This document shows positions 12,163 through 32,291 of a stretch of 32,291 bases of DNA, piece after piece. Below the pieces are notes generated by a model that searched no databases, was not told where the DNA came from, and saw only the letters and a program-made list of their open reading frames with translations. Source of the stretch: Clostridiales bacterium (GTDB lineage Bacteria; Bacillota; Clostridia; Lachnospirales; Lachnospiraceae). Where the stretch lies: the NCBI GenBank assembly GCA_029012085.1, contig JAQXLK010000116.1, forward strand, positions 1 to 32,291, in the 5' to 3' direction. Each line of letters begins with the position of its first letter. Position 1 is the first letter of the stretch. A program made the translations under genes and the position numbers.

Positions 12163-14253
12163 ATGTACAAAAAGTTTGAAATGGAACTTGCCGGCAGAAC
12201 ACTTCGTGTAGATGTTGGACGAGTTGCAGCACAGGCAAATGGTGCAGCATTTATGCACTATGGAGATACGGTTGTATTATCTACAGCAACTGCATCCGAG
12301 AAACCAAGAGAGGGAATTGATTTCTTTCCGCTTTCTGTAGAGTATGAGGAGAAGCTCTATTCTGTAGGTAAGATCCCGGGAGGCTTTAACAAGAGAGAAG
12401 GTAAGGCAAGTGAGAATGCGATTCTTACATCCCGTGTTATTGACCGTCCAATGCGTCCTTTATTCCCTAAGGACTATCGTAATGATGTAACCCTTAACAA
12501 TTTGGTAATGTCAGTTGATCCTGAGTGCTCACCAGAGCTTACTGCAATGCTTGGTTCTGCAATTGCAACAGCTATCTCAGATATTCCATTTGATGGTCCT
12601 TGTGCTACCACACAGGTTGGTTTGATTGATGGAAAGTTTGTATTTAATCCGAATGAAGCACAGAATGCAGTTTCTGATTTGAAGCTTACGGTAGCTTCTA
12701 CAGCTGAGAAGGTTATTATGATTGAAGCTGGTGCCAATGAAGTGCCAGAGGATAAGATGATTGAGGCTATTTATGCAGCCCATGAGGTTAACCAGCAGGT
12801 AATCGAGTTTATCAATAAGATTGTTGCTGAGTGTGGTAAGCCAAAGCATTCTTATACAAGCTGTGCAGTTCCTGAGGAATTATTCGCAGCAATTAAGGAG
12901 ATTGTTCCTCCAGAGGAGATGGAGAAGGCAGTCTTTACAGATGAGAAGCAGGTAAGAGAGGAGAATATCCGTCAGATTACTGAGAAGTTAGAAGAAGCAT
13001 TTGCTGATAATGAGGAGTGGCTTGCTGTTCTTTCAGAAGCTATTTATCAGTATCAGAAGAAGACTGTTCGTAAAATGATTTTAGTTGACCACAAGAGACC
13101 GGATGGACGTGAGATTAATCAGATTCGTCCATTGGCTTCAGAGGTTGATATTATTCCTAGAGTTCATGGTTCTGCTATGTTTACCCGTGGACAGACCCAG
13201 ATTTGCAATGTTACCACATTGGCACCGTTATCTGAGGCACAAAAGATTGATGGTCTTAATTTGTTAGAGACCAATAAGAGATATATGCATCAGTATAATT
13301 TCCCTTCTTATTCAGTAGGTGAGACAAAGCCATCAAGAGGACCTGGACGAAGAGAGATTGGACATGGTGCATTGGCAGAGCGTGCATTAATTCCTGTACT
13401 TCCATCAGAAGAGGAATTCCCATATGCTATCCGTTCTGTATCAGAGACCTTTGAGTCTAATGGTTCTACATCCATGGCATCTACCTGTGCGTCTTGTATG
13501 TCACTTATGGCAGCAGGTGTACCGATTAAGAAAATGGTTGCAGGTATTTCCTGTGGTCTTGTAACCGGTGAGACAGATGATGATTACATCGTATTAACAG
13601 ATATCCAGGGTCTTGAGGACTTCTTTGGTGATATGGACTTTAAGGTAACCGGTACTCATGATGGTATTACTGCAATTCAGATGGATATTAAGATTCATGG
13701 TCTTACACGTCCAATCGTGGAAGAAGCAATTCGTAGAACAAGAGAAGCAAGACTTTATATTATGGATGAGGTTATGTCTAAGGTAATTGCAAAACCACGT
13801 GAGACAGTTGGTGCATTGGCACCTAAGATTAGCAGCCTTAAGGTTGATCCGGAGAAGATTGGTGAAATCATCGGACAGCGTGGTAAGACAATTAACTCCA
13901 TTATTGAGGAGACAGGTGTTAAGATTGACATTGATGATGATGGAACAGTTGCAATCTGTGGTGTAGAGCAGGCCGGTATTGACAGAGCACTTAAGATTAT
14001 TCACTCCATTGTAGATCCGATTGAGGTTGGAAAGATTTACGAGGGCAAAGTTGTTCGTATTATGAATTTTGGCGCATTTGTAGAGCTTTCTCCAAATAAG
14101 GATGGTCTGATTCATATTTCTAAGCTTTCAAAAGAAAGAGTTGCAAAGGTAGAGGATGTTGTAAATATCGGTGATACCGTTAAGGTTAAGGTGCTTGAGA
14201 TAGACCGTATGGGCAAGATTAGCTTAAGCCTTAAGGATGCAGCAGAAGAATAA
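12163..14253 (+). CDS. pnp: Polyribonucleotide nucleotidyltransferase (PNPase)
   Basis: At 696 residues it is full length. PNPase degrades RNA 3' to 5' with phosphate, or adds tails in reverse, as a trimer. Two RNase PH-like domains are visible: the first at about residues 10-145 (PREGIDFFPLSVEYEEK, GKIPGGFNKREG) and the second at about 310-540 (KRPDGREINQIRPL, SGSTSMAS-like, IQMDIKIHGL). They are followed by a KH domain (KIGEIIGQRGKTINSIIEETG region, about 565-590) and a C-terminal S1 domain (YEGKVVRIMNFGAFVEL, about 625-690). AAGGAG precedes the ATG. The usual upstream neighbour rpsO is absent. The next gene starts 28 bp downstream, so they are probably cotranscribed. Confidence 0.98.
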   Translation: MYKKFEMELAGRTLRVDVGRVAAQANGAAFMHYGDTVVLSTATASEKPREGIDFFPLSVEYEEKLYSVGKIPGGFNKREGKASENAILTSRVIDRPMRPLFPKDYRNDVTLNNLVMSVDPECSPELTAMLGSAIATAISDIPFDGPCATTQVGLIDGKFVFNPNEAQNAVSDLKLTVASTAEKVIMIEAGANEVPEDKMIEAIYAAHEVNQQVIEFINKIVAECGKPKHSYTSCAVPEELFAAIKEIVPPEEMEKAVFTDEKQVREENIRQITEKLEEAFADNEEWLAVLSEAIYQYQKKTVRKMILVDHKRPDGREINQIRPLASEVDIIPRVHGSAMFTRGQTQICNVTTLAPLSEAQKIDGLNLLETNKRYMHQYNFPSYSVGETKPSRGPGRREIGHGALAERALIPVLPSEEEFPYAIRSVSETFESNGSTSMASTCASCMSLMAAGVPIKKMVAGISCGLVTGETDDDYIVLTDIQGLEDFFGDMDFKVTGTHDGITAIQMDIKIHGLTRPIVEEAIRRTREARLYIMDEVMSKVIAKPRETVGALAPKISSLKVDPEKIGEIIGQRGKTINSIIEETGVKIDIDDDGTVAICGVEQAGIDRALKIIHSIVDPIEVGKIYEGKVVRIMNFGAFVELSPNKDGLIHISKLSKERVAKVEDVVNIGDTVKVKVLEIDRMGKISLSLKDAAEE

Positions 14254-15671: not shown

Positions 15672-18353
15672 TTGGCTGGTAGTAAGAATCAAAACAGAAA
15701 ACAAACTTCAAATAATAAGAATGCAGCTTCTCGAAACGGAAAGAACAGCAATCGTTCGAAGAAGGATACGACTAGAGAGACACAGACAAAGAAAAGCAAC
15801 AGACAGGGAAGAGAAGTGGTGGAGGAAGAGGTATCTTACGCACCAGAGATTGCTGTTTGGATTGTGTGTGCGGTAATGCTGATTATCGAACTTGGTAATT
15901 TTGGATTATGTGGGTTTATTAATGTGGTTAGTAACTTTTTCTTCGGTATTTTCGGAGTGATTGAGTACATATTACCATTGGTTGTGATGTTTGCGGCTTT
16001 CTTCCTGCATGTGAATGAATATAAGAAGCGTGCAGTACAAAAGGTTGTATTTGGTTCCTGCGTATTATTGTGTATTGGAATGATTGGTCAGTTAGTGGCA
16101 GGAATGTCCGATTTTTCTGTTGCAAATGCGTATATGGATGGATATAAGAACCATTTAGGCGGAGGTGTTTTATGTGGCAGTGCTGCTTATCTGCTGCATA
16201 AGGGCGTTGGTCTTGTGGGTACCTATATTATCATTATTCTCGTAATGATTCTGTGTGTGGTATTGTTTGCAGAGGTTTCTGTTATTGAGTTAGTAAAATC
16301 ATTTATGGCGGAAATGAAAGAAATCAGAGAGGAAGAGGATTACGATACGGAGGAAGATTATGAGGAAATAAGACAATCCAGACGAAAAGTAAAAAAACAA
16401 CCCAGGGCAGATTTTGATGAAATCGTGACAGAAGATTTTCCGGGTGGAAGAGATGAAGTGTTTAAGGAACGGAAGAAATCTTCCTTACTGGATGCAATTT
16501 CTGTTCTTCCGGCAGATTCCGATAAGGGGATTTTACCATCTAAAACTGTAGATAAGTTTCCGAAAAATGAAGAAGTACATGAAATTACCATGGAATATGA
16601 GCTGGACTTGCCGGGTGAAAATATGGGTGAGTTTGCAGTGACAGAAGTATCAAAGGAAGCGGTAAAGGAAAGTGCACCAAAGCGTTCTCGAAAAAAGAAA
16701 GCGAAACCTGTGAACGTTGAGAACATAGTAACACCACCGGTTTCTGGTGCCGCAAAGGTAGAGAATGAGATGACAGCGGCTCCACCGGCAGATGTTATGA
16801 ATATGGAGAATAAGACGGCAACGGAAGTGAAAAATGTTTCGGCAAAGGTTGTAAGTACCAGTGACTCCGATTACAAATTTCCACCTTTGGAACTTCTAAA
16901 AAGAAGCAAAAGCCAGACTTCTACAAAGGAGGATACCATTCGAAAGAATGCAGTGAAGCTTCAGGAGGTCTTAAAGAGCTTTGGTGTAAATGTTACCATG
17001 ACAAATTATAGCTGTGGACCATCGGTAACCCGTTATGAAATGGTGCCGGAGCAGGGAGTAAAAGTCAGCAAGATTACAGGGCTTGCTGACGATATCATGA
17101 TGAATCTGGCGGCTCAGAGTATTCGAATTGAAGCACCGATTCCAGGAAAATCCGCAGTCGGCATTGAGATACCAAATGGAACGCGAAGCGGCGTAGGTTT
17201 TCGAGAATTAATTGATACAGAAAAATTTATCAAGCATCCATCTAAGATTGCTTTTGCCGTTGGTAAGGATATTGAGGGTAATGTTGTGGTAGAAGATATT
17301 GCAAAAATGCCGCATTTATTGATTGCAGGAGCTACCGGTTCCGGTAAGTCGGTATGTACAAATACGTTGATTATGAGTATTTTATATAAGGCACATCCTG
17401 ATGAGGTGAAATTGATTTTGGTGGATCCGAAACAGGTAGAGCTTAAAGTATATAATGGAATTCCACATCTGCTTACACCGGTTGTAACAGATCCAAAGAA
17501 GGCAGCTGGTGCACTGAACTGGGCAGTTGCTGAGATGACAAAACGATACCAGATGTTTTCGGAGTATAATGTTCGTAATATTCAGGGATATAATGCAAAG
17601 CTGGAGGAACTTAAAAAATCCGGTCAGATACCGGAGGAGGCGCAGACCTTGGAAAAAATGCCACAGATTGTTATTATTGTGGACGAGTTGGCAGACCTGA
17701 TGATGGTGGCGAAGGCAGAAGTAGAGGAGGCAATTGTGCGTCTTGCCCAGCTTGCCCGTGCTGCAGGAATCCATCTGGTGATTGCAACACAAAGACCTTC
17801 TGTTGATGTAGTAACCGGTTTGATTAAGGCAAATGTTCCATCTAGAATTGCACTTTCCGTATCATCTGGTATTGATTCTAGAACCATCATCGATACGGTT
17901 GGCGCAGAGAAGCTTTTAGGTAATGGTGATATGTTGTTTTATCCGACCATGTATCCGCAACCGCTTCGTGTACAGGGAGCATATATTTCAGATGATGAAG
18001 TCATGAATGTGGTTGAATTTTTAAAGGCGCAAAATGGAGAGACGACCTATAGTGAAGAAATTACGAAGCAGATTACTTCTTCGGGAGGAAGCAGTGGTGC
18101 CACAGCAATAAATGGCTCATCTGATAATGACAGGGATGAATATTTTGTTCAGGCTGGAAAGTTTATTATTGATAAAGATAAGGCATCCATCGGAATGCTT
18201 CAGAGAATGTTCAAGATTGGATTTAACCGGGCCGCCCGGATTATGGATCAGTTAGCTGAGGCTGGTGTGGTTGGGCCGGAAGAGGGAACGAAGCCAAGAC
18301 AGGTATTAATGTCGGAGGAACAGTTTGAGGAATATGTGGATGAATACTTTTAG
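15672..18353 (+). CDS. ftsK: DNA translocase FtsK/SpoIIIE
   Basis: An 893-residue septal DNA pump. After a basic, Asn/Ser/Lys-rich N-terminus there are about four membrane helices (residues about 58-205). A long acidic and Lys-rich linker follows (about 205-410). The motor has the Walker A loop GATGSGKS at 553-560, VDPKQVEL, a Walker B region IIVDELADLMMV, and LVIATQRPSVDVVTG. The C-terminal winged-helix gamma domain (FIIDKDKASIGMLQRMFKIG and on) reads KOPS/SRS-type polarity sequences in studied homologues. The start is a TTG at 15672, supported by GAGGAGGG seven bases upstream and by the lack of a better-placed ATG. It segregates chromosomes at division and, if the host sporulates, may serve in forespore translocation. 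Confidence 0.96.
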   Translation: MAGSKNQNRKQTSNNKNAASRNGKNSNRSKKDTTRETQTKKSNRQGREVVEEEVSYAPEIAVWIVCAVMLIIELGNFGLCGFINVVSNFFFGIFGVIEYILPLVVMFAAFFLHVNEYKKRAVQKVVFGSCVLLCIGMIGQLVAGMSDFSVANAYMDGYKNHLGGGVLCGSAAYLLHKGVGLVGTYIIIILVMILCVVLFAEVSVIELVKSFMAEMKEIREEEDYDTEEDYEEIRQSRRKVKKQPRADFDEIVTEDFPGGRDEVFKERKKSSLLDAISVLPADSDKGILPSKTVDKFPKNEEVHEITMEYELDLPGENMGEFAVTEVSKEAVKESAPKRSRKKKAKPVNVENIVTPPVSGAAKVENEMTAAPPADVMNMENKTATEVKNVSAKVVSTSDSDYKFPPLELLKRSKSQTSTKEDTIRKNAVKLQEVLKSFGVNVTMTNYSCGPSVTRYEMVPEQGVKVSKITGLADDIMMNLAAQSIRIEAPIPGKSAVGIEIPNGTRSGVGFRELIDTEKFIKHPSKIAFAVGKDIEGNVVVEDIAKMPHLLIAGATGSGKSVCTNTLIMSILYKAHPDEVKLILVDPKQVELKVYNGIPHLLTPVVTDPKKAAGALNWAVAEMTKRYQMFSEYNVRNIQGYNAKLEELKKSGQIPEEAQTLEKMPQIVIIVDELADLMMVAKAEVEEAIVRLAQLARAAGIHLVIATQRPSVDVVTGLIKANVPSRIALSVSSGIDSRTIIDTVGAEKLLGNGDMLFYPTMYPQPLRVQGAYISDDEVMNVVEFLKAQNGETTYSEEITKQITSSGGSSGATAINGSSDNDRDEYFVQAGKFIIDKDKASIGMLQRMFKIGFNRAARIMDQLAEAGVVGPEEGTKPRQVLMSEEQFEEYVDEYF

Positions 18354-23445: not shown

Positions 23446-23488
23446 TGATGGACAGTAATGTTTCAAAAGAATAATGGGTGACATGTAG

Positions 23489-23517
23489 TGTACAAAAATC
23501 GGATTTTAAGTTATACT
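23489..23517 (+). promoter_or_regulatory. Possible promoter of the toxin-antitoxin pair
   Basis: TGTACA (23489-23494) and a good TATACT (23512-23517) are 17 bp apart, about 30 nt before the antitoxin ATG. Confidence 0.5.
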
Positions 23518-23547
23518 ATATATAACAAAAAGGAAGAAGGTGTTTGT

Positions 23548-23784
23548 ATGTTAGCTTTACAAGGGTATTATGATGGGAATACAGTGCAGCCATTGGAAAA
23601 GATTCAGGCAAAGAAAAATCAGAAATTGATTATAACGATATTGGATGAATTTATACAGGAAGTGCCGGAAACTACAATGCATTCTGCTAGAGGTTTACTT
23701 TCGGAATATGCAAATCTTGAGTTGATGAAAGAAGAGAAGTCTGCTTGGGAAAAGGCGGTGATAGAAAAGTATGGTAATACTTGA
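23548..23784 (+). CDS. Putative antitoxin of a PIN-domain toxin-antitoxin pair
   Basis: A 78-residue protein, MLALQGYYDGNTVQPLEKIQ, then a QKLIITILDEF strand and an acidic, helical C-terminal part (SARGLLSEYANLELMKEEKSAWEKAV). The short beta start with a YYDGNTVQPLE pattern, followed by a partner-binding tail, fits antitoxins that accompany PIN toxins in Firmicutes. I cannot name the family for certain. The ATG at 23548 was chosen because GGAAGAAGG lies just upstream; an earlier in-frame ATG (23488) would start upstream of the -10 element. It overlaps the toxin gene by 14 bases, the usual coupled arrangement. If typical, it also represses its own promoter together with the toxin. Confidence 0.75.
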   Translation: MLALQGYYDGNTVQPLEKIQAKKNQKLIITILDEFIQEVPETTMHSARGLLSEYANLELMKEEKSAWEKAVIEKYGNT

Positions 23785-24136
23785 TGCAAATATGATTTTA
23801 CGCTATTTGTTAAATGATAATGAAAAAATGGCAGAAGAAGCAGAGAAAATTATTCGTGAGGGTTCTGTACAGGTGACAATAGAAGTTCTTGCAGAGGTTG
23901 TATATGTTTTGAAGGGAGTATATTCTATTGAACGGGGTACAATAAAGACAAGTATGTTAGTTTTTTTATCTGAGGTTCAGATGATTGATATAGAAGTTGT
24001 TAAGCTTGGATTAGAAACGTATGCTGAACAGAATTTGGACTTTGTGGATTGTATATTATATGCATATAATAGAGTAAAAGGATATGAAATAAAAACTTTT
24101 GATAAGAAATTGAAGAGGTTATTGGAAAATAAGTAA
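23771..24136 (+). CDS. PIN-domain ribonuclease toxin (VapC-like)
   Basis: A 121-residue PIN-domain protein. The acidic metal-binding set is present: D5 in VILDANMILRYLL, an acidic residue in the helix VTIEVLAEVVYVL (E38 or E42), D93 in LDFVDCILYAY (D90 is an alternative) and D111 in IKTFDKKLKRL. PIN toxins cut RNA with Mg2+, often tRNA or rRNA sites; the target here is unknown. It starts inside the antitoxin gene and is followed by a long terminator hairpin. The cassette lies between the conserved pgsA end and a decayed gene, a typical insertion point for mobile stabilisation modules. Confidence 0.88.
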   Translation: MVILDANMILRYLLNDNEKMAEEAEKIIREGSVQVTIEVLAEVVYVLKGVYSIERGTIKTSMLVFLSEVQMIDIEVVKLGLETYAEQNLDFVDCILYAYNRVKGYEIKTFDKKLKRLLENK

Positions 24137-24159
24137 TGATTTCATTGCTAGGTTAAAGA

Positions 24160-24210
24160 GGCTTCAGTTCGGTATTTTATAATATATAATACCGGGTTGG
24201 AGCTTTTCTT
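24160..24210 (+). terminator. Terminator after the toxin-antitoxin pair
   Basis: GGCTTCAGTTCGGTATT (24160-24176) pairs with AATACCGGGTTGGAGCT (24188-24204) to give a 17-bp stem including several G-U pairs. It is followed by TTTCTT. Confidence 0.8.
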
Positions 24211-24719
24211 GGCTGTCACTGTTTATACAGGGTACAGCAAAAGATAGTGTTGTGTTGTTGATGGTGGCAGCTAGTATTGTTATTCGGATATTTGAAAAGA
24301 AACTGGGGAGACTTGCAAAATATTTATATATTTCCATTATGCCTGTCTTTGGAGCAGTCGTGATTTTTTTTGCAAATGATGGTAAATTTGGGGCAATGAT
24401 TCTGTTCCCAAAGTCTTATCTAAAGATGGACAGTCTGGTAATCTGGATATTTATTGGTATTGTTTATGTTCTAGCTTTACTTGTTGCAGTAGTGATTACA
24501 ACCAGAACGTATGAATTGAAGAATATCGTAACAATCAAAGATGATTTGCTGGTCTCTATGAAGAAATTGGAATCCATATCAGAACAGGCTGCGGAAAGAA
24601 CAGCAGAGATCAGTACTTCTACGGGAGAGCAGGTGGCAGGCGTGGAAAAGATTATTCATTCTATGGAAAATGTACAAAATGGAATAGAACATTTGTCTGT
24701 AATATTGAATAACAGATAG
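24183..24719 (+). pseudogene. Decayed membrane receptor, probably a chemoreceptor remnant
   Basis: The frame is open from 24183 to the stop at 24717-24719 and reads as protein before any plausible start: YIIPGWSFSWLSLFIQGTAK runs directly into DSVVLLMVAASIVIRIFEKK. No ribosome binding site precedes the GTG at 24252 or the ATG at 24261. Three or four hydrophobic helices are followed by a cytoplasmic coiled coil (SEQAAERTAEISTSTGEQVA). This is the layout of a multi-helix-sensor methyl-accepting chemotaxis protein, but it stops before any signalling tip. The junction FGAM-ILFPKSYL may hide an internal deletion. A terminator overlaps its 5' end. I read it as truncated at both ends; a small expressed membrane protein cannot be excluded. 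Confidence 0.6.
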
Positions 24720-25042
24720 GTATATCATATCGTGCAGAGTGGAGAAGCAGAAAGGTATAATGTGTTTCATGTTCTGATGCTGATGAGACATGCCAAAGAC
24801 GATATATCTGTATGACATTATGGAAATAAAAAAGAAACGAGCAACCTTTTCCAGTCGGATGACCTTACTCAGCAGAAGAACCCATTTCTTTTATCTAAAT
24901 CATAAAGGGATATGTCAGTTTTGTCAACCTTCAATTTTTGTTATTTTAAGCATATTTTAAGAAATTAAATCCTCTTTTGGTTAATACAAAAGAAAATTTG
25001 TTTATAAAATAATAATTATTCTCATTTTCTATTCCGTTTTCC
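24720..25042. other. AT-rich gap without a gene
   Basis: These 323 bases contain no convincing frame. The first part may be residual sequence of the decayed receptor. An inverted repeat occurs at 24830-24892, and the rest up to the promoter at 25043 is A/T-rich. I looked for a c-di-GMP riboswitch because an HD-GYP-type gene follows, and did not find the consensus. Confidence 0.5.
24830..24892. repeat. Inverted repeat enclosing a possible structured RNA
   Basis: AAAAGAAA (24830-24837) and TTTCTTTT (24885-24892) enclose about 47 nt containing GAGCAACC, CCAGTCGGATGACC and CTCAGCAG. Read on the minus strand it would end in a T run, like a weak terminator. I cannot assign a known RNA family. Confidence 0.35.
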
Positions 25043-25071
25043 TTGACGTTTTTTGTCAAAAATTGTATTAT
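25043..25071 (+). promoter_or_regulatory. Promoter at the head of the HD-GYP/TasA-like locus
   Basis: TTGACG (25043-25048) and TATTAT (25066-25071) are 17 bp apart. Transcription would start near 25078, on the ribosome binding site AGGGGG (25078-25083), leaving a leader of only about 10 nt. Confidence 0.65.
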
Positions 25072-25088
25072 ATACTGAGGGGGACACT

Positions 25089-25796
25089 ATGATTGTATAT
25101 GATAAAGAGGACATGAAAAAAACAAAAGAGGGCTGTTATCCAACACTTTCCTGCCTGTATAGTATTATACCAAGAGATGTCAGATTACATATGGAACGGG
25201 TTGGTGTATATGCAAAGGTATTCTATGAATATTTGGAGCAGCAGCATCCTGAGCTTGTAGCACCCCTTAATCATGAGATAGATGACTGCATACAGGATCT
25301 TTATACTTTGCATGACGTTGGACGTGCCTTTGTTCCAGTACGGTTTCAGAATAAAGCCGGCGGATTGACGGATGAAGAGTTTGAGCAGGTGAAAAAGCAT
25401 ACAATATTGACAGCAGATACACTGGATAGTGTGTATAAGCTGCCCTTTACAGATATAGTCAAGATGCATTTATATAACATATCTATGTATCACCATGAGA
25501 AATATGATGGTACGGGATATCCCTTTGGTATACAGGGTGAACAGATACCAATTGAGGCAAGGATTTGCTCCCTGGCGGATGCATTTGACGGAATGACAAG
25601 CTGGAAGCCATATCGAAAGAATATGGGCTTGGATACTGTAAAGCGGATTATATTGGAAGAGGCGGGAAAACAATTTCAGCCTACACTTTCGTTGGCATTT
25701 GTGGAATGTATCGATAATATGCCAATGGATATGGATGCTTCATGGGAAGCACAGGCGGGACAATATTTCAGTAAGGAGAAAGATATTTTCAGATAG
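25089..25796 (+). CDS. HD-GYP-type c-di-GMP phosphodiesterase-like protein
   Basis: A 235-residue stand-alone HD-GYP domain. Metal and substrate motifs are mostly intact: H75-D76 in LHDVGR, H104 in KKHT, H135-H136-E137, then DGTGYP (140-145) and IPIEARICSLADAFDGMT (153-170). The usual HDxGK is HDVGR here, with Lys replaced by Arg. This is unusual for a family in which active members hydrolyse c-di-GMP. There is no receiver or membrane domain. The start was taken as the ATG at 25089 with AGGGGG six bases upstream; a TTG at 25053 lies inside the promoter. The next gene begins 32 bp after the stop, suggesting one transcript with the surface-protein locus and hence a signalling role there (inference). 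Confidence 0.85.
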   Translation: MIVYDKEDMKKTKEGCYPTLSCLYSIIPRDVRLHMERVGVYAKVFYEYLEQQHPELVAPLNHEIDDCIQDLYTLHDVGRAFVPVRFQNKAGGLTDEEFEQVKKHTILTADTLDSVYKLPFTDIVKMHLYNISMYHHEKYDGTGYPFGIQGEQIPIEARICSLADAFDGMTSWKPYRKNMGLDTVKRIILEEAGKQFQPTLSLAFVECIDNMPMDMDASWEAQAGQYFSKEKDIFR

Positions 25797-25828
25797 GGAA
25801 TAACAATTTACCGGCAGGGTGATAAAAT

Positions 25829-26779
25829 ATGGCAGGTAGAAAGAAGGGTAAAAAGGAACAACTGAATATAGATACAAGTTCTGCGAAATCTGTACAGAGA
25901 CAGTACCGGCGGATGGAGCGAAGTTCCAAGTTCTGGAATAAAATTGATCCGGCAAACAAGTTCAGGCATTGGTATTTGGGAACGGCGAGTTTGACAAGAA
26001 GCTTGTTTCGTGTGGTTGCGGCCTGGCAGACTATTGTTATATTGGTAAGTGTTTTGGTGACTTTATACATATTGGCAGCATTTTATACAGGAAAAGGAGA
26101 ATTCGTTATTAAGTTAGACCGTCCTATGGCGGATGAGGGATTTCTTCTTTCGGAAAATCAGGATTTTAGTGATTTTCTTGTTACTTTACGGGACGATGCA
26201 GTAGAGGATGCAACGAATATATCCATTTATGATATTGCAAAGGATGTAATGGATGTGGATGGTAAGCATAATGGAGCCAATTATGTAGCTTATACCTTTT
26301 ATTTGAAGAATAAGACGACACAGGCGCATGATTACCATTATGAGTTATCCGTACAAAGTACTGCAAAGAATGCAGATACCGCAACGTGGGTAATGGTATT
26401 TAAGAATGGCAAACAACAGATATTTGCCCAGGAAAATGATGGCGGTTATGCAGAATGTCTGTATAGCAAGTGGGAATTTCCATTTATGGAATATGCCGAG
26501 GACCCGAAAGTTCAATCGGTGGTTGAGGATGCCAATAAAGCACATGTAACGGATGAAATGATGGAGTACCATGAATTCACCCAGGTGGAAGGTCTTTACC
26601 AGTTAGAAACCCTTCCATGGGCAGCAAAGGATTTGGTCTGTACGGGAAGCCGTCAGGAAATGCAGCCGGATGAGACGGATAAATATACCGTAGTTATCTG
26701 GTTAGAAGGAGATGACCCGAACTGTAAGGATGATATACTAGGCGGGCATGTGGAGATGACGATGCGGTTTATGTATTAG
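25829..26779 (+). CDS. One-helix membrane protein with TasA-like C-terminal motif
   Basis: A 316-residue protein I cannot assign to a named family. It has a basic cytoplasmic N-terminus (MAGRKKGKK, about 60 residues), one membrane helix at about 64-85 (WQTIVILVSVLVTLYILAAF) and a roughly 230-residue outer domain that looks beta-rich. The last 31 residues, with VVIWLEGDDPNCKDDI at 288-303, match the end of the next gene's product (LYIWIEGTDPQCGNEI), so the two are probably related in fold. It could be a membrane anchor or assembly base for the secreted subunit. The N-terminus is too long and basic for a normal cleaved signal. AGGGTGAT precedes the ATG. It lies 32 bp after the HD-GYP gene. Confidence 0.8.
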   Translation: MAGRKKGKKEQLNIDTSSAKSVQRQYRRMERSSKFWNKIDPANKFRHWYLGTASLTRSLFRVVAAWQTIVILVSVLVTLYILAAFYTGKGEFVIKLDRPMADEGFLLSENQDFSDFLVTLRDDAVEDATNISIYDIAKDVMDVDGKHNGANYVAYTFYLKNKTTQAHDYHYELSVQSTAKNADTATWVMVFKNGKQQIFAQENDGGYAECLYSKWEFPFMEYAEDPKVQSVVEDANKAHVTDEMMEYHEFTQVEGLYQLETLPWAAKDLVCTGSRQEMQPDETDKYTVVIWLEGDDPNCKDDILGGHVEMTMRFMY

Positions 26780-26834
26780 AATTAAAACAGGAAGTCCTGT
26801 TCAATATAAAATAATTAGGAAAGGATGAGGAAGA

Positions 26835-27785
26835 ATGATGAGAGAAGAAAATGAAAAGAAACAAAAGAACATTGTGAAAAAGGCGAAGAAAATCCGCAGT
26901 ATGGTGATGATGTCACTGTTGTGTGTGCTGATGTTGTCGGCAGCGACTTATGCGTGGTTTACGTTGAGTAATACGGCGAAGGTGAGTAATCTGACCATGA
27001 CGGTTGGGGATGTTACTGGTTTGCAGGTTGCAGACTGGGCTAGTGATAGTGAAACGATTAGTGATACTGGTGATAATGCATGGAGAGCGGAAACTACTGC
27101 AGTGGAGTTTAACGGAAAGTTGTTACCAGCAACGACTAAAGATGGTAAAACTTTTTTAGCACCTGATTACGCAGATAATGGATCGGTTGATAATACAACA
27201 TCAGCATCAAAATATTTAACTAAAGGATCTGCAAAAAATGATGAAGGATATTATATAGAGTATAAGTTTTGGATGCGTGCAAGTGGTGTTGCGAGAGGAA
27301 AAACGAAAGTTAAATTAGATGTGGGAACTGATTTGAATAATGGAATATATAAAGAGACTAATCCACAACCTAAAGGTACATATTCTTTATCTAAAGATGT
27401 GAATGAGGGTGATGTATTACCATCTTCTGCTGTTCGAATTGCCATTATAAAGGATGCAAGTGCTGGTGAAACTGAAAGTATAAAGGTTTATGAGCCTAAT
27501 GCCAAGAATGATAGTGGAGCCGACTTAGAGAATGCAAAAATAATAGCAAGTGATGTTAGAGGTGATAAAAAAACGGTAGATTCAGATGTATTGCAGAAAG
27601 TCGGAGGAGAATTTGTTTCTAGTAGTAGCGAGGTGTTAGAACTTACAAATAATAAACAAACTCTTATCAAATTGTATATTTGGATAGAAGGAACAGATCC
27701 TCAATGTGGAAATGAAATTGCGGCAAAAAATATTATTTCGCAGTTGAAGTTTTCTACAGTAACAACAGAAACACAGACGCCATAA
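26835..27785 (+). CDS. Secreted TasA/camelysin-like protein with SipW-type signal
   Basis: A 316-residue exported protein. After a basic start, the hydrophobic segment SMVMMSLLCVLMLSAATYAWFT (about 22-43) resembles the signal peptides of SipW substrates such as TasA and camelysin, with cleavage likely near SAATYA-WFT. The segment VSNLTMTVGD follows at once. The C-terminal YIWIEGTDPQCGNEI (281-295) is shared with the preceding gene. There is no LPXTG motif or second helix, so it may be released or polymerise. The central part has a base composition clearly lower in GC than the signal region (hand count about 33-36 against 48 per cent). By context it is the likely main fibre or matrix subunit, processed by the SipW-like peptidase at 30822. 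TasA homology is inferred from signal, motifs and neighbours, not alignment. Confidence 0.75.
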   Translation: MMREENEKKQKNIVKKAKKIRSMVMMSLLCVLMLSAATYAWFTLSNTAKVSNLTMTVGDVTGLQVADWASDSETISDTGDNAWRAETTAVEFNGKLLPATTKDGKTFLAPDYADNGSVDNTTSASKYLTKGSAKNDEGYYIEYKFWMRASGVARGKTKVKLDVGTDLNNGIYKETNPQPKGTYSLSKDVNEGDVLPSSAVRIAIIKDASAGETESIKVYEPNAKNDSGADLENAKIIASDVRGDKKTVDSDVLQKVGGEFVSSSSEVLELTNNKQTLIKLYIWIEGTDPQCGNEIAAKNIISQLKFSTVTTETQTP

Positions 27786-27851
27786 AGTTAATCATGTCTA
27801 CCTCGTTGAAAGCAGAAGATGAACCACCACCCCCACAACGGAGAATAACAA

Positions 27852-29519
27852 ATGGATGCATTTTTTAATTATTTTTACAATTTCATGAATAGCGTGTTCG
27901 GATATCTTTGGGATATTGTAATTGCCATCAAGAATGCAATTGTCGGAATCTTGGATGTTAAGTTCTATATGGATTTATTCAAGTCCTACAAGGATGATTT
28001 GTCTACCGGTGGGTGGATTGCAGCATTACTGACGCATATTATTGTACTGTTAATTTTTATCCTTCTTGTTTATCTGATTGGAAGAGGTTTACGTGTCTTT
28101 TTCCGGTTTAAGGTGCCTGTAGTGGAGTACGAGGAGATGAAGGATGAAGTAGTCAGACTGAAACGTGAGATTTTGAAGGCAAATTACGAAAAGGATAAGA
28201 TTCTTGCAATGAAGGTAAGCGAGATGGGCATGCAGGTGAACCCGGATTTGCTGGATTTGCAAGGCGAAGAAGCGGCTGCTGTGGAGGATACGGCTGATAA
28301 AGAAGAAGCGGTTCGAAATGCTGCAGCAGAGAGCGAGAACAATCTGGATGATTTGAGCGATGCAGAAAAGGAAGCTTTGGCAGTGGCACAGGCAGAGGGC
28401 AAGCCGGTTCAGAAGGTGGAAGTCGGAGAGCTTCGTTTCCCGAAATTATCTGCCGTGGATGCATATTACAAATCCGAAAATTATGTGGCACCACAGTTTC
28501 CTATGAATTATTCGTTGGAAGAGCTTTGTATGACATTTCGTAACTATGCAGCTTCCAGACTGGGACTGTATTATGAGTTAGAGGTTATCCGGGAGGTGTT
28601 TGCTTCCTTTGGAGCAGCGAAGATGCTGATTTTACAGGGTATTTCCGGTACAGGTAAAACTTCTCTTCCATACGCATTAGGACAGTTTATCAATAATCCG
28701 AGTCTGATTTGTTCGGTTCAGCCGTCATGGCGTGACCGTACGGAATTGTTTGGTTATTACAATGACTTTACGAAGAAATACACAGAGACGGATTTCTTAA
28801 AGACGATATACGAATCCCATTATCAGGACAATATCCGTGTTATCATTTTGGACGAGATGAATATTGCCCGTGTGGAATACTATTTTGCGGAAATGTTGTC
28901 TATTTTGGAATTACCACGTGAGGATGAACGATTTATCTCCGTGGTATCCAGCAAAGCAGAAAATGACCCGGACAAGATGATAGATGGTAAGGTGTGGATT
29001 CCGAAAAATGTATTTTATGTAGGAACCATTAATAATGATGATTCTACCTTTGCGGTAGCGGATAAGGTATATGACCGTGCGATTCCAATCGATTTGGATG
29101 ACCGCGCGACTGTATTTGAAGCACCGGATACAGAAGGTATTCCGATTAATATGGATTACCTGAATTCACTGTATGAGAAAGCAAAAAAAGATTATCCTCT
29201 CTCAGAGGAAAGTCTTATGGAATTAGATAGGCTGGATACTTATCTGATTGAACATTTCAGATTAACATTTGGTAACCGTATTCTTAGACAGATGAAAGAT
29301 TTTGTTCCATGCTATGTGGCATGTGGTGGTACAGAGATTGATGGAATTGATTTTATGTTTGCTAAGAAGATTCTTCGTAAATTTGAGTCTTTAGGATTAG
29401 GATTTATTCGTGATGAGATTGACGGCTTGATTGATTATCTGAACCATGTATATGGAGAGGAAAACTTCAGAGTAAGTAAAACGTATTTAGCTCGTTTGAA
29501 GAAAATGAGCGGAGCATAA
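27852..29519 (+). CDS. Membrane-tethered McrB-like AAA+ ATPase
   Basis: A 555-residue protein with a hydrophobic, aromatic N-terminus, a clear membrane helix at about 57-80 (THIIVLLIFILLVYLIGRGL), and a charged, acidic, probably coiled-coil linker (about 95-190). The AAA+ module has Walker A GISGTGKTS (263-271, K269), Walker B ILDEMNIARVEYYFAEML (D334, E335), and sensor-1 GTINNDDSTFAVADKVYDRA with N394 and a candidate arginine finger R409. DEMN-x-A-x4-YF-x-EM and GTxNxxD are hallmarks of the McrB group of GTP/ATP-driven motors. McrB proper is cytosolic and cuts modified DNA with McrC; this one is anchored and has no DNA-binding domain I recognise. GGAG precedes the ATG. Substrate unknown; remodelling of an envelope complex is my inference. 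Confidence 0.85.
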   Translation: MDAFFNYFYNFMNSVFGYLWDIVIAIKNAIVGILDVKFYMDLFKSYKDDLSTGGWIAALLTHIIVLLIFILLVYLIGRGLRVFFRFKVPVVEYEEMKDEVVRLKREILKANYEKDKILAMKVSEMGMQVNPDLLDLQGEEAAAVEDTADKEEAVRNAAAESENNLDDLSDAEKEALAVAQAEGKPVQKVEVGELRFPKLSAVDAYYKSENYVAPQFPMNYSLEELCMTFRNYAASRLGLYYELEVIREVFASFGAAKMLILQGISGTGKTSLPYALGQFINNPSLICSVQPSWRDRTELFGYYNDFTKKYTETDFLKTIYESHYQDNIRVIILDEMNIARVEYYFAEMLSILELPREDERFISVVSSKAENDPDKMIDGKVWIPKNVFYVGTINNDDSTFAVADKVYDRAIPIDLDDRATVFEAPDTEGIPINMDYLNSLYEKAKKDYPLSEESLMELDRLDTYLIEHFRLTFGNRILRQMKDFVPCYVACGGTEIDGIDFMFAKKILRKFESLGLGFIRDEIDGLIDYLNHVYGEENFRVSKTYLARLKKMSGA

Positions 29520-29529
29520 AAATTGAGAG

Positions 29530-29580
29530 GGCTGTCGCACACAATACACAGTATATAGGGATGCGGCGGCCTTTTGTGTT
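29530..29580 (+). terminator. Terminator-like hairpin inside the locus
   Basis: GGCTGTCGCA (29530-29539) pairs with TGCGGCGGCC (29562-29571), a 10-bp stem with two G-U pairs and a 22-nt loop, followed by TTTTGTGTT. It lies between the ATPase gene and the DUF2357-like gene and could lower expression of the downstream part. Confidence 0.75.
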
Positions 29581-29609
29581 CACAATGAGCCAATAGGCGA
29601 GAGGAAAGT

Positions 29610-29657
29610 ATGAAGTATAGGAAACGGGTAGGAAACCTGCCCGGTAAGGAAGGGTAA
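29610..29657 (+). CDS. Possible 15-residue leader ORF before the DUF2357-like gene
   Basis: ATG at 29610 is preceded by GAGGAAAG (29601-29608) and opens a short frame, MKYRKRVGNLPGKEG, whose TAA ends four bases before the next ATG at 29662. It contains an 8-bp hairpin (29625-29643) and covers the downstream ribosome binding site. It may couple or gate translation of the next gene. No proof of expression. Confidence 0.35.
   Translation: MKYRKRVGNLPGKEG
29625..29643 (+). promoter_or_regulatory. Tight hairpin just upstream of the DUF2357-like gene
   Basis: CGGGTAGG (29625-29632) pairs with CCTGCCCG (29636-29643) over an AAA loop, ending four bases before the ribosome binding site AGGAAGGG. The position suggests an effect on translation initiation. 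Confidence 0.55.
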
Positions 29658-29661
29658 CGAT

Positions 29662-30804
29662 ATGGTATACGATGAATATTCGGATGATATTTTAAATGCA
29701 TATGCCAAAATGACCGGTAAAGCAGAGGGAGATATGACGGAAGACCCGTATTACAAATATTTCTACAATCTGTTAGAGACAGGCCGGAACTATGTCAAAT
29801 ATTCCTATGTCCGTCTGGTAAAGGAAGTGGATGAGACATGGGTTAATGCCATAGAAGAAGCGTTACCGTCTTTGCAGCATGTGGTATTAAATCCCCGTAA
29901 ATTCATTGAGGAAGAGCGGGAGGTTGTTAACATTGCCATGGCAAGAAATATTACGGCAGAATCCGTAAGACATTTACTGGCACATAGTAATTATATTGAC
30001 GAATACCGGGAAGATGGAACGGTAATTCCTAATAAAATTTTGAACATTTATAAAGAGGAATCCTTAAATACATACGAAAATCGTTTTATCTGTACCCTGA
30101 TTGCAGAATTACAGTTTTTTATTAATAAGAGATTTGATGCCATATTTGAGGCGAGTAAGGACGAGCTGGGCGTTAATTTTGAAGTGGGTTCCAGTATCGA
30201 TAATTATACAGAAACAGTGGATTATTCCTTACAGATTAAGATTCGGGATAAACAGACTGACACAGAAAGTGAGTTTGAAAATAAGGATGTATTTGCAAGA
30301 ATTATACAATTACATCGTAATATAAATATGTTGGTGGGCACAGAGTTTGTTGCAACGATGCGGCGTTTTCCGGCTGTAAAGCATCCGATTGTAAAGACGA
30401 ATGCCATTGCAAAGAACCGTGATTATAAGGCGTGCCACAAATTGTGGAATTTTATTCATTCCTATACGCATGTAGGATACAAGGTGGATTTGGTGAAACA
30501 GGATCCTAACATTTCCAAATCCTTTGAACATGATATTTACAGTTCATTTATATGGAATTATGCGATGCTTCATAACTATATGGAGGATGTGGATGTACTA
30601 AATATTAACAGAGAAACCCGTAAGAAGGAACTGGATATGCAGGGAATCCGTCAGCTGTTAGAGGAGATTGTGGCAGGTACGGATATTCCGGATGCCAACC
30701 TTCGGAAGATTGTAGATAATGAGTTAAGGAGTATTCAGGCGCGCAGGAAGCAGGAAAAGGAAGCTGCTGAAAAAGTGGTAAAACAGCAGAAAAAGGAACA
30801 ATAA
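29662..30804 (+). CDS. DUF2357-like partner of the McrB-like ATPase
   Basis: A 380-residue, soluble, helix-rich protein. The segments VVLNPRKFIEEE (75-86), IPNKILNIYKEESLNTYENRF (122-142) and LIAELQFFINKRF resemble the DUF2357 domain, a family commonly encoded beside McrB-like ATPases and often fused to a PD-(D/E)XK nuclease. I see no such nuclease motif here; the C-terminus is a charged helix rich in Lys and Glu (about 350-380). The protein may therefore be an adaptor rather than a nuclease. The start ATG has AGGAAGGG seven bases upstream. It follows the ATPase gene across a terminator-like hairpin and precedes the signal peptidase gene by 17 bp. The family assignment is from motif memory. 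Confidence 0.65.
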   Translation: MVYDEYSDDILNAYAKMTGKAEGDMTEDPYYKYFYNLLETGRNYVKYSYVRLVKEVDETWVNAIEEALPSLQHVVLNPRKFIEEEREVVNIAMARNITAESVRHLLAHSNYIDEYREDGTVIPNKILNIYKEESLNTYENRFICTLIAELQFFINKRFDAIFEASKDELGVNFEVGSSIDNYTETVDYSLQIKIRDKQTDTESEFENKDVFARIIQLHRNINMLVGTEFVATMRRFPAVKHPIVKTNAIAKNRDYKACHKLWNFIHSYTHVGYKVDLVKQDPNISKSFEHDIYSSFIWNYAMLHNYMEDVDVLNINRETRKKELDMQGIRQLLEEIVAGTDIPDANLRKIVDNELRSIQARRKQEKEAAEKVVKQQKKEQ

Positions 30805-30821
30805 GAAAGAGTAGTGAAGGC

Positions 30822-31991
30822 ATGAAGAGATTTTTTTCGATATTAAGAGATGTAGCATTTGTTATATTTGTACTTTTCATTTGTGGTATGATTTTCATAA
30901 TGTCTACCGGGAAGCATTTTTCGGTTGCCGGTTATCAGGTGTTGAGGGTGCTTACCAGCAGTATGGAACCGGCGATTGCAGAAAATACATGTATCATCAT
31001 AAAGGAGTATCCGGTAGACCAGCTAAAGGTGGGAGACATTATTACATTTACATCGGATGACCCGCAGATTCAGGGATATTATAATACCCACCGTATTCAT
31101 GATATTGTGGAAGAAAATGGGGAAACCCTCTTTGTAACAAAGGGTGATGCTACTTCTGCAGTGGATGCGTATCCGGTACATAAGGATCAGGTGGCAGGAA
31201 TATTTGTAAAGGAGCTGCCGGGAGGAAGGACACTTGGAAAGATGTTCTTGGCACTGTCGGATAACAAGGTATATTTTCTGGTTATTATGCTTCCGCTTGC
31301 CTTATGTCTGTTATCTTACTTTTGGCAGATTGTGAGTATGGTAACCGGGCGGTATGATGAAGACGAAGAAGATGAGGATTACGAAGCAATCAAGAAAGAA
31401 ATTGATGAGTTATACGATATGGGAGGCTACCCGGCTGTTGAGACAGATTTTAATGTGAAAGAAACTGCTGGTAAGGAAAGAAATTTCGGAGTTGAGGATG
31501 GTTCTGTTGCGGAAGGAATTTCTGATGATGGGGAAACAATTTCCGAGGTTGTAGGAACTCCTAGTAAGACAGAAACTGCCAGCATTGAGGGTGTATTTGG
31601 TAAGAAAGATACTTTCGGCATCGAGGGAACGTTTGATGAGGTTGGGGTTCCTAGCGTTGAGGAGTTTTCAAGCAGGGAAACAGCTTTTGGTGTGGAGGAA
31701 GATTTTGGCATGGAAAGAAATGATGAAATTGAAAGTAAGCAGCAGAATGAGAAAATATCAGATAACATAAATACGATTATTTCAGATAGTGAAATAGAAG
31801 CAATATTAGCAGAGGCAGCCAGCAAAATTGAGGATTCAGAGACTAAGCCGGAAAAAACTCGAATCGAGAAGATGGTGGAGGAGCTTACTTCAAATACAGT
31901 TAGTGATGAACTAGTGGAGAAAAAGAGAGAAATGCTCAAGGCAGAATATAAAAAAATCAATAAAAATTATGCTAAGTCTGATGCTGAATAA
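30822..31991 (+). CDS. sipW: SipW/ER-type signal peptidase I with long repetitive acidic tail
   Basis: Residues 1-175 form a signal peptidase of the ER/archaeal (S26B, SipW) type. TM1 is at about 9-28, then the catalytic serine in LTSSMEP (S47), a histidine in place of the bacterial lysine (H90 in NTHRI), TKGDA with D109, D115, and a second helix at about 151-172. In Bacillus SipW processes TasA and TapA, which fits the TasA-like genes here. The unusual part is residues 177-389: a cytoplasm-side or surface extension, highly acidic, with short repeats around FG(I/V/M)E at 222, 265, 289 and 295, then a charged helix at about 320-385. SipW proteins are usually near 190 residues. The RBS is weak (GAAGG). 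The gene follows its neighbour by 17 bp. Confidence 0.85.
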   Translation: MKRFFSILRDVAFVIFVLFICGMIFIMSTGKHFSVAGYQVLRVLTSSMEPAIAENTCIIIKEYPVDQLKVGDIITFTSDDPQIQGYYNTHRIHDIVEENGETLFVTKGDATSAVDAYPVHKDQVAGIFVKELPGGRTLGKMFLALSDNKVYFLVIMLPLALCLLSYFWQIVSMVTGRYDEDEEDEDYEAIKKEIDELYDMGGYPAVETDFNVKETAGKERNFGVEDGSVAEGISDDGETISEVVGTPSKTETASIEGVFGKKDTFGIEGTFDEVGVPSVEEFSSRETAFGVEEDFGMERNDEIESKQQNEKISDNINTIISDSEIEAILAEAASKIEDSETKPEKTRIEKMVEELTSNTVSDELVEKKREMLKAEYKKINKNYAKSDAE

Positions 31992-32043
31992 TTTGGCAGG
32001 TAAAGCTATTTTTGAAGTATAAAAGATAGGTGGTGATGGATAT

Positions 32044-32291
32044 ATGCAAAAGGATTTAAATGAGAATACACAACAAAATAGAACGAATAAGCATTTTATC
32101 CATCAGGTGCGTATATTACTGAAAGACTGGGATATCAAGGTGATGTCTTATGTTATGCTTGTCATTGTTATGATTGCAATGATTGCGGCTACGGTAGCAT
32201 GGTTTCTTTATTTTAAAGTTGTGGCAGTTTCTAATATGAGCATGACAACTGCTGACTGCGAAGTGCTGAAGGTGGAAGTAAAGCAGGGTAC
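32044..32291 (+). CDS. TasA-like membrane or exported protein, 5' part only
   Basis: The frame starts at 32044 and runs off the window after 82 codons. It has a 33-residue polar N-terminus, then a hydrophobic stretch at about 34-58 (VMLVIVMIAMIAATVAWFLY) and VSNMSMTTAD at 62-71. ATVAWF followed by VSNMSMT closely parallels ATYAWF followed by VSNLTMT in the secreted protein at 26835, so the two are probably paralogues of the SipW-dependent type. Whether the segment is cleaved or stays as an anchor is unclear; the long charged N-terminus recalls the protein at 25829. AGGTGG lies about 12 bases upstream, a rather long spacing. An alternative ATG at 32035 is in another frame that stops quickly. 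Confidence 0.7.
   Translation, partial: MQKDLNENTQQNRTNKHFIHQVRILLKDWDIKVMSYVMLVIVMIAMIAATVAWFLYFKVVAVSNMSMTTADCEVLKVEVKQG

Follow-up and report, generated by a model that had tools for sequence, protein, structure and literature searches.

A SipW-linked, probable surface-fibre operon of Lachnospiraceae carrying a membrane McrB-like NTPase and a DUF2357 partner without a recognised nuclease

Introduction

In the Bacillus tapA-sipW-tasA and sipW-calY operons, a dedicated SipW signal peptidase accompanies its secreted substrates, and TasA subunits assemble through donor-strand exchange, for which TapA acts as a helper (PMC9674648, PMC10151520). TasA itself has a phenylalanine at P2', two places after the cut (PMC10269814). 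No NTPase is named in these operons as the two papers describe them, and the searched text of PMC9674648 holds no word beginning with ATP. Signal-peptidase-linked McrBC systems have, for their part, already been named CoCoPALM (PMC11090510, eLife 2024). As characterised there, they have a McrB-like domain, in which E or D usually comes after the N-x-D signature, fused to an FtsB-homologous membrane and coiled-coil domain, together with a McrC homologue (DUF2357), usually with a coiled coil, and a gene of the signal peptidase family at the locus. The class receives one passage and no dissection in the main text of that paper, and our literature search, mostly at title and abstract level and largely outside subscription journals and bioRxiv, found no dissection elsewhere among the papers listed. 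Here we analyse a locus that joins features of both kinds of system at the end of contig JAQXLK010000116.1 of a Clostridiales bacterium (Lachnospiraceae; assembly GCA_029012085.1, 407 contigs). The window is this entire contig of 32,291 nucleotides (G000:C116), and the operon is truncated at its last base, 32291.

The locus resembles CoCoPALM in its McrB-like protein with a membrane and coiled-coil part (the latter by eye here), its DUF2357 partner and its adjoining signal peptidase gene, and it differs from the CoCoPALM text (PMC11090510) in having TasA-like subunits, a giant protein, cyclic di-GMP (c-di-GMP) enzymes and an island site, which are unnamed there. Because the class has a name, we file the locus as a member of it, with an anatomy that the published main text does not describe. 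Its conserved content indicates that it is probably a surface-fibre operon of the CoCoPALM kind, in which a membrane McrB and a nuclease-free McrC-like partner serve the maturation or release of subunits and which is linked to c-di-GMP.

Results

The gene cluster is conserved across genera

A scan of a sequence collection with the McrB protein of the window gave 40 loci. Thirty of these (L005-L034), whose titles name Lachnospiraceae, Roseburia, Agathobacter, Lachnospira, Clostridium or a higher rank, were termed Lachnospiraceae-type, and eight (L035-L041, L044), with a McrB identity of about 40%, were Bacilli- or Erysipelotrichaceae-type. Genes were counted by running profiles on all open reading frames (ORFs) as far as the contigs extend; these profiles derive from those Lachnospiraceae-type loci themselves, and the independent evidence is that of the Bacilli-type rows and of the family sample below. 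The Lachnospiraceae-type order is HD-GYP, C2, C3 (one or two copies), McrB, DUF2357, SipW, C6, C7, C5 and a giant protein, C9. The HD-GYP gene precedes C2 in all 28 loci with upstream sequence (each gene 28/28), C3 precedes McrB in 29/29, and DUF2357 was found in 30/30, SipW in 28/29, and C6, C7 and C5 each in 29/29. The exception is L029, where C6 follows two bases after DUF2357 (12989-12992) and no SipW was found. Where sequence exists in the Bacilli-type loci, a C3-like gene lies before McrB (7/7) and DUF2357 and then a SipW-type gene after it (7/7); a C2-like gene was recognised in three by profile (L035, L037, L039) and in seven by single-linkage BLAST grouping. To the extent that contigs cover it, the TasA-like/McrB/DUF2357 part is thus present in 38 of the 40 loci, L029 without SipW among them, and the remaining two (L042 and L043, the latter just 3.7 kb) carry a longer McrB of another architecture and no SipW match. 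Common to both locus types are a C3-like subunit, McrB, DUF2357 and SipW.

We also searched 200 genomes of the family, from 199 genera, with the McrB profile at E<=1e-40. Fifteen matched, including that of the window; among the other 14, 12 aligned from residue 1 or 2 and were counted as membrane McrB. A C2 or C3 gene was adjacent in 12/12 of these and SipW in 11; the contig of the twelfth (G582) breaks off before that point, and a different contig has a SipW-type gene close to its beginning. Of these 12 contigs, six (L055-L060) had already come up among the 40 loci and six (L061-L066) were new. The two matches without the membrane part (L067, L068) have tandem McrB genes and neither subunits nor SipW; in both, the two McrB-like genes flank a DUF2357 gene. 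SipW-type matches at E<=1e-10 occurred in 60 of the 200 genomes, comprising 13/13 with membrane McrB and 47/187 without (Fisher p 5.8e-8, ignoring shared descent). Genomes can thus have SipW-type genes and lack the pair, but membrane McrB was never seen without SipW-type genes in the sample. One genome of the family (G519) has ten SipW-type matches. Outside the family the pair is rare, the single match among 398 genomes of the phylum sample being the window's own genome, and within the genus it is patchy (2/23 congeners). The pairwise distances of the operon families correlate (r 0.75 to 0.98), which we do not use as evidence because shared descent yields the same.

The initial annotation, made from the sequence of the window alone, had proposed co-occurrence across genera as its own test, and the genes do stay together in Lachnospiraceae-type and Bacilli-type loci. 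The 38 of 40 scanned loci, the 12 of 12 family-sample loci and the distribution of SipW led us to reject a chance neighbourhood.

A membrane McrB-like NTPase is paired with a DUF2357 protein

The McrB-like protein matched the NCBIfam McrB model PRK11331 at 7e-07 (28 bits, well below the cut-off of 637), and its profile gave three matches at E<=0.001 among the sequences of solved structures, each of them E. coli McrB. Walker A (263-270) and the N-N-D residues are invariant in all 16 aligned rows, as is Walker B except for one masked residue. The residue after N394-N395-D396 is D in 15 rows and masked in one, which gives the N-x-D signature; the second D coincides with the NxxD position in an ungapped alignment with E. 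coli McrB, and the published 'deletion' is not seen. A membrane segment spans residues 58-76 and a weaker one residues 15-33. Basic residues follow the segment at 58-76 and, by the positive-inside rule, the NTPase would therefore lie in the cytosol. Among 41 cluster members, 38 have one or two membrane segments, L043 has six and two have none. A coiled coil after the segment was judged by eye, and no FtsB/DivIC family was found among Pfam matches at E<=1.

The partner matched DUF2357 at 1.9e-10 (Pfam), and PF09823 was found in 16/16 partners scanned out of 38 in the group, the longest (L035 and L062) being left out. Those two proteins have 1,308 (L035 11613-15539) and 818 residues, respectively, compared with the usual length of about 400. 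No nuclease family was found in the 16 scanned partners at E<=0.1 with family models, so by sequence they lack the recognisable PD-(D/E)xK nuclease of McrBC restriction systems, though a degenerate form of its fold may persist; nor was a nuclease recognised in the operon proteins scanned with Pfam (C7 left out). The DUF2357 profile gave no McrC match among solved-structure sequences up to E 10. The C-terminal tails of the partners are charged, longest in Bacilli-type members, and by eye form a coiled coil. The pair named in the initial annotation is thus borne out: it shares the AAA+ McrB domain and the DUF2357 activator with canonical E. coli McrBC and differs from it in the N-terminal membrane segment and the absence of a recognised nuclease. 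The accompanying statement, which places known McrB-type ATPases in DNA restriction loci, no longer holds, given the CoCoPALM class (PMC11090510).

Plasmid and phage collections gave 17 matching records and one, respectively, at E<=1e-20, none covering more than 80% of the query. An unannotated phage scaffold (MT835511.1, L106 3001-3786) carries a McrB-like ATPase region of 35% identity.

SipW-type processing is predicted for TasA-like subunits

The peptidase of the window matched TIGR02228 at 3.1e-21, above the cut-off, and the SipW model NF046067 at 2.8e-20, below it, in keeping with its first description as SipW-type. Signal peptidases of the SipW and endoplasmic reticulum (ER) type use a Ser-His catalytic pair in place of Ser-Lys, and Ser47, His90 and Asp109 are invariant in 16 peptidase rows. 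An A-x-[FY] motif stands at the signal end of 135/156 subunits, compared with 18/84 other ORFs used as controls, which predicts a SipW-type cleavage with an aromatic residue at P2'. C2 has a single hydrophobic segment, followed by A-x-[FY] in 28/33. Every subunit has a cytosolic N-terminal tail; in the C2 tail (residues 36-67), 14/32 positions are conserved at 90% or more in the core clade.

C2 and C3 have in common the end motif W-x-E-G-x-D-x-x-C (hhalign E 3.9e-06). C6 aligns with C3 over the signal region (hhalign E 4.9e-13), and its fragment in the window is 64% identical to the complete gene in L005; a profile comparison of C2 with C7 gave no relation. Three proteins with TasA-like end motifs had initially been reported, of which two, C2 and C3, show the motif, and the third, at 32044, does not because the window is the whole contig and C6 is cut at its end. 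No subunit was named by any family model above cut-off in Pfam or NCBIfam (C7 by NCBIfam only), the best match of ten subunits against NCBIfam being NF046066 with 12.6 bits for one C7 member (cut-off 450), and the C3 and C7 profiles did not match TasA among solved-structure sequences. In the predicted subunit fold, the TasA fibre was the top structural match among the 50 listed, 20 of which were donor-strand or related filament subunits as judged from their titles. We accordingly regard the subunits as TasA-like on the basis of the signal-end motif, the profile matches among subunits and the predicted fold. They share with the Bacillus operons a dedicated SipW, the aromatic residue two places after the cut and a predicted beta-sandwich (PMC9674648, PMC10151520); unlike Bacillus TasA they match no TasA model and number five per operon, with a giant in addition, and unlike those operons as described, the locus includes a McrB NTPase. 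The BsaA proteins of Clostridium perfringens are SipW-linked matrix proteins in a member of the Clostridia, a likeness by description only (PMC7395162).

Five complete copies of the giant C9 (L045 217-11307, L069, L070, L071, L072) have 3,678 to 4,135 residues and 18 to 27 GG-[LFVIM]-x-G repeats each. LPxTG is absent from all five, and the C-terminal end is almost invariant (KTDM, KTDMQ or KTDF), possibly as a docking or sorting element. The last 450 residues were unrelated to the five subunit families in profile comparison, and one giant scanned with Pfam and NCBIfam gave no match. Our guess is that the giant sits at the tip as an adhesin and is docked to a subunit through its last strand.

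Predicted c-di-GMP enzymes lie in and beside the cluster at an island site

The HD-GYP protein matched Pfam HD_5 at 6e-22. The hallmark of HD-GYP phosphodiesterases is the presence of the HD and HHExxDGxGYP motifs, and the HD and GYP residues are unbroken in 13 aligned members; the protein is therefore not a degenerate variant. A GGDEF-EAL gene (EAL 6.7e-61 and GGDEF 2.2e-08 in L045), or a relative detected with a custom EAL profile, stands at one end of the island in 5/5 genomes with both ends read, 3' of the giant in four and 5' of HD-GYP in one. In Bacilli-type loci with enough sequence, EAL proteins follow SipW in 4/6 (L035, L037, L038, L039), and in L041 and L044 the protein belonging to this group gave no EAL match. 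The EAL gene of L039 shares four bases with the SipW gene, and two further overlapping genes come after it, the last again EAL; the one between (15711-16427), overlapping the EAL-type genes on both sides, resembles MTA/SAH nucleosidases (TIGR01704, 61 bits, under the cut-off of 73.8). None of the divergent loci L062-L066 has an HD-GYP match, one of the five being cut upstream, and L065 has a short EAL-like ORF upstream. No riboswitch was found by Rfam in six sources at gathering scores or in window positions 24100-25900 at E<=5. This gene content suggests that c-di-GMP enzymes beside or in the cluster tie the fibre to a decision to attach or leave.

The insertion site was compared in eight same-genus genomes, out of 25 with rimO. 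In 8/8 of those read, rimO and pgsA are directly followed by a carboxyltransferase gene, and no EAL gene was found at these empty sites (0/8). The empty sites are all of one genus, and since their genera differ from those of the islands, a Fisher test on EAL genes is not used as evidence. In G016, the operon, a 3,696-residue giant and a GGDEF-EAL gene occupy about 22 kb between pgsA and the carboxyltransferase gene.

Discussion

Since the cluster recurs in many related bacteria, the motor probably helps to build the fibre rather than to cut DNA. Most economically, the pair would act on the export and maturation of the subunits. Five small subunits (C2, C3, C6, C7, C5) and one giant adhesin-like protein would be exported, and the dedicated SipW-type peptidase would cut the small ones at A-x-[FY]. 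As is known for TasA, the N-terminal strand set free by the cut may fill in the fold of the following subunit. The McrB-like protein would form an AAA+ ring tethered to the membrane and would sit with its nuclease-free McrC-like activator on the inner membrane face, beside the uncleaved subunits and SipW, where NTP hydrolysis might drive the holding, release or pulling of the cytosolic subunit tails or might gate the long-tailed SipW. Subunits could then be released in order or on demand, with attachment under the control of the c-di-GMP enzymes. Of this picture, the genes and their order, their conservation, the intact catalytic motifs, the membrane segment, the signal motif and the lack of a recognisable nuclease are observed, whereas the fibre, the ring, its substrate and the regulation are inferred. 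The full proposal, that McrBC, known as a restriction motor that translocates DNA, was taken over as an NTP-driven machine, tethered to the membrane, for assembling or releasing Gram-positive donor-strand fibres under c-di-GMP control, is put forward tentatively and with somewhat more doubt than conviction.

A membrane-anchored AAA+ protein next to subunits that all bear cytosolic tails, that of C2 being well conserved in the core clade, could also be a quality-control extractor that pulls stuck or uncleaved subunits from the membrane and is dispensable for normal fibre assembly, and the occurrence of SipW-type genes without the pair fits such a role. For an accessory of this kind we would expect more frequent loss or relocation, whereas the pair stays between subunit and peptidase genes in both locus types, and we consider this explanation unlikely. 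It is still harder to credit that an unrelated McrBC remnant was inserted into a plain TasA/SipW operon; the Bacillus tasA and calY operons as described do name no McrBC genes (PMC9674648, PMC10151520), but the comparative data contradict a remnant, with gene order conserved in many genera and motifs intact, and we give it almost no weight.

The initial annotation had left the joint function between an ATP-driven system for a surface fibre and a defence system with secreted subunits. The fibre branch agrees with what is conserved and with the lack of a recognised nuclease. For defence, the McrBC-like pair would sense phage or other foreign nucleic acid, and the secreted subunits would be effectors or block adsorption. 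Described McrBC relatives are mostly restriction systems (PMC11090510), the presence of the locus is patchy in the genus and island-like in one, and the ATPase region matches the PADLOC candidate PDC-M26A at 4e-36. That candidate is better fitted by the long McrB of L042, which has neither membrane segment nor SipW (162 vs 123 bits), and the DUF2357 partner and nine other operon or island proteins match no PADLOC model. With no PADLOC match beyond the ATPase region and no nuclease recognised in the partners scanned, we rejected a defence cassette as the best reading; it is improbable and has little behind it beyond McrBC ancestry.

Should the fibre-building role hold, a motor of restriction enzymes would have switched from DNA cutting to construction at the cell surface, a fibre class so far described without a cytosolic motor would have one, and some gut Lachnospiraceae would possess an adhesive fibre, linked to c-di-GMP, that escapes the family models tried. 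The locus also provides CoCoPALM, a class with a name but no dissection, with a defined set of genes and testable parts, namely which subunits are cut, whether fibres need NTP hydrolysis and whether the conserved cytosolic tail of C2 is a dock for the pair.

Gene organisation of the window

The co-directional run described at the outset is present as seven + strand genes from 25089 to the window end in the ORF list (Table 1), separated in order by 32, 55, 66, 142, 17 and 52 bases. The start of the HD-GYP gene is the ATG favoured by the majority of aligned relatives. In relatives, the genes for C7, C5 and the giant C9 come after C6. Promoter-like sites showed no excess (32 vs 28.4 in shuffles), and one lies immediately 5' of the HD-GYP gene.

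Table 1. Genes of the operon in the window
Feature	Position	Strand	Remark
HD-GYP domain protein, predicted c-di-GMP phosphodiesterase	25089..25796	+	first gene of the operon; Pfam HD_5
Subunit C2, membrane-anchored TasA-like protein with conserved cytosolic tail and W-x-E-G-x-D-x-x-C end motif	25829..26779	+	
Subunit C3, TasA-like secreted protein, possible main fibre subunit	26835..27785	+	
McrB-like AAA+ NTPase with N-terminal membrane segment, then probable coiled coil (by eye)	27852..29519	+	
McrC-like partner with DUF2357 domain, no PD-(D/E)xK nuclease recognised	29662..30804	+	PF09823
SipW-type (ER/archaeal-type) signal peptidase with long C-terminal tail	30822..31991	+	TIGR02228
Subunit C6, beginning of a third TasA-like protein, ends at contig edge	32044..32291	+	

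Between pgsA and the operon, the window has a 98-residue ORF, a PIN-domain gene and a 155-residue ORF. The first two overlap (23488-24136; PF01850 5.7e-12) and look like a toxin-antitoxin pair; none was present at that place in the eight empty sites read. The 155-residue ORF (24252-24719) matches no family above cut-off and has, by eye, hydrophobic stretches and a helical tail; it may be a truncated sensor.

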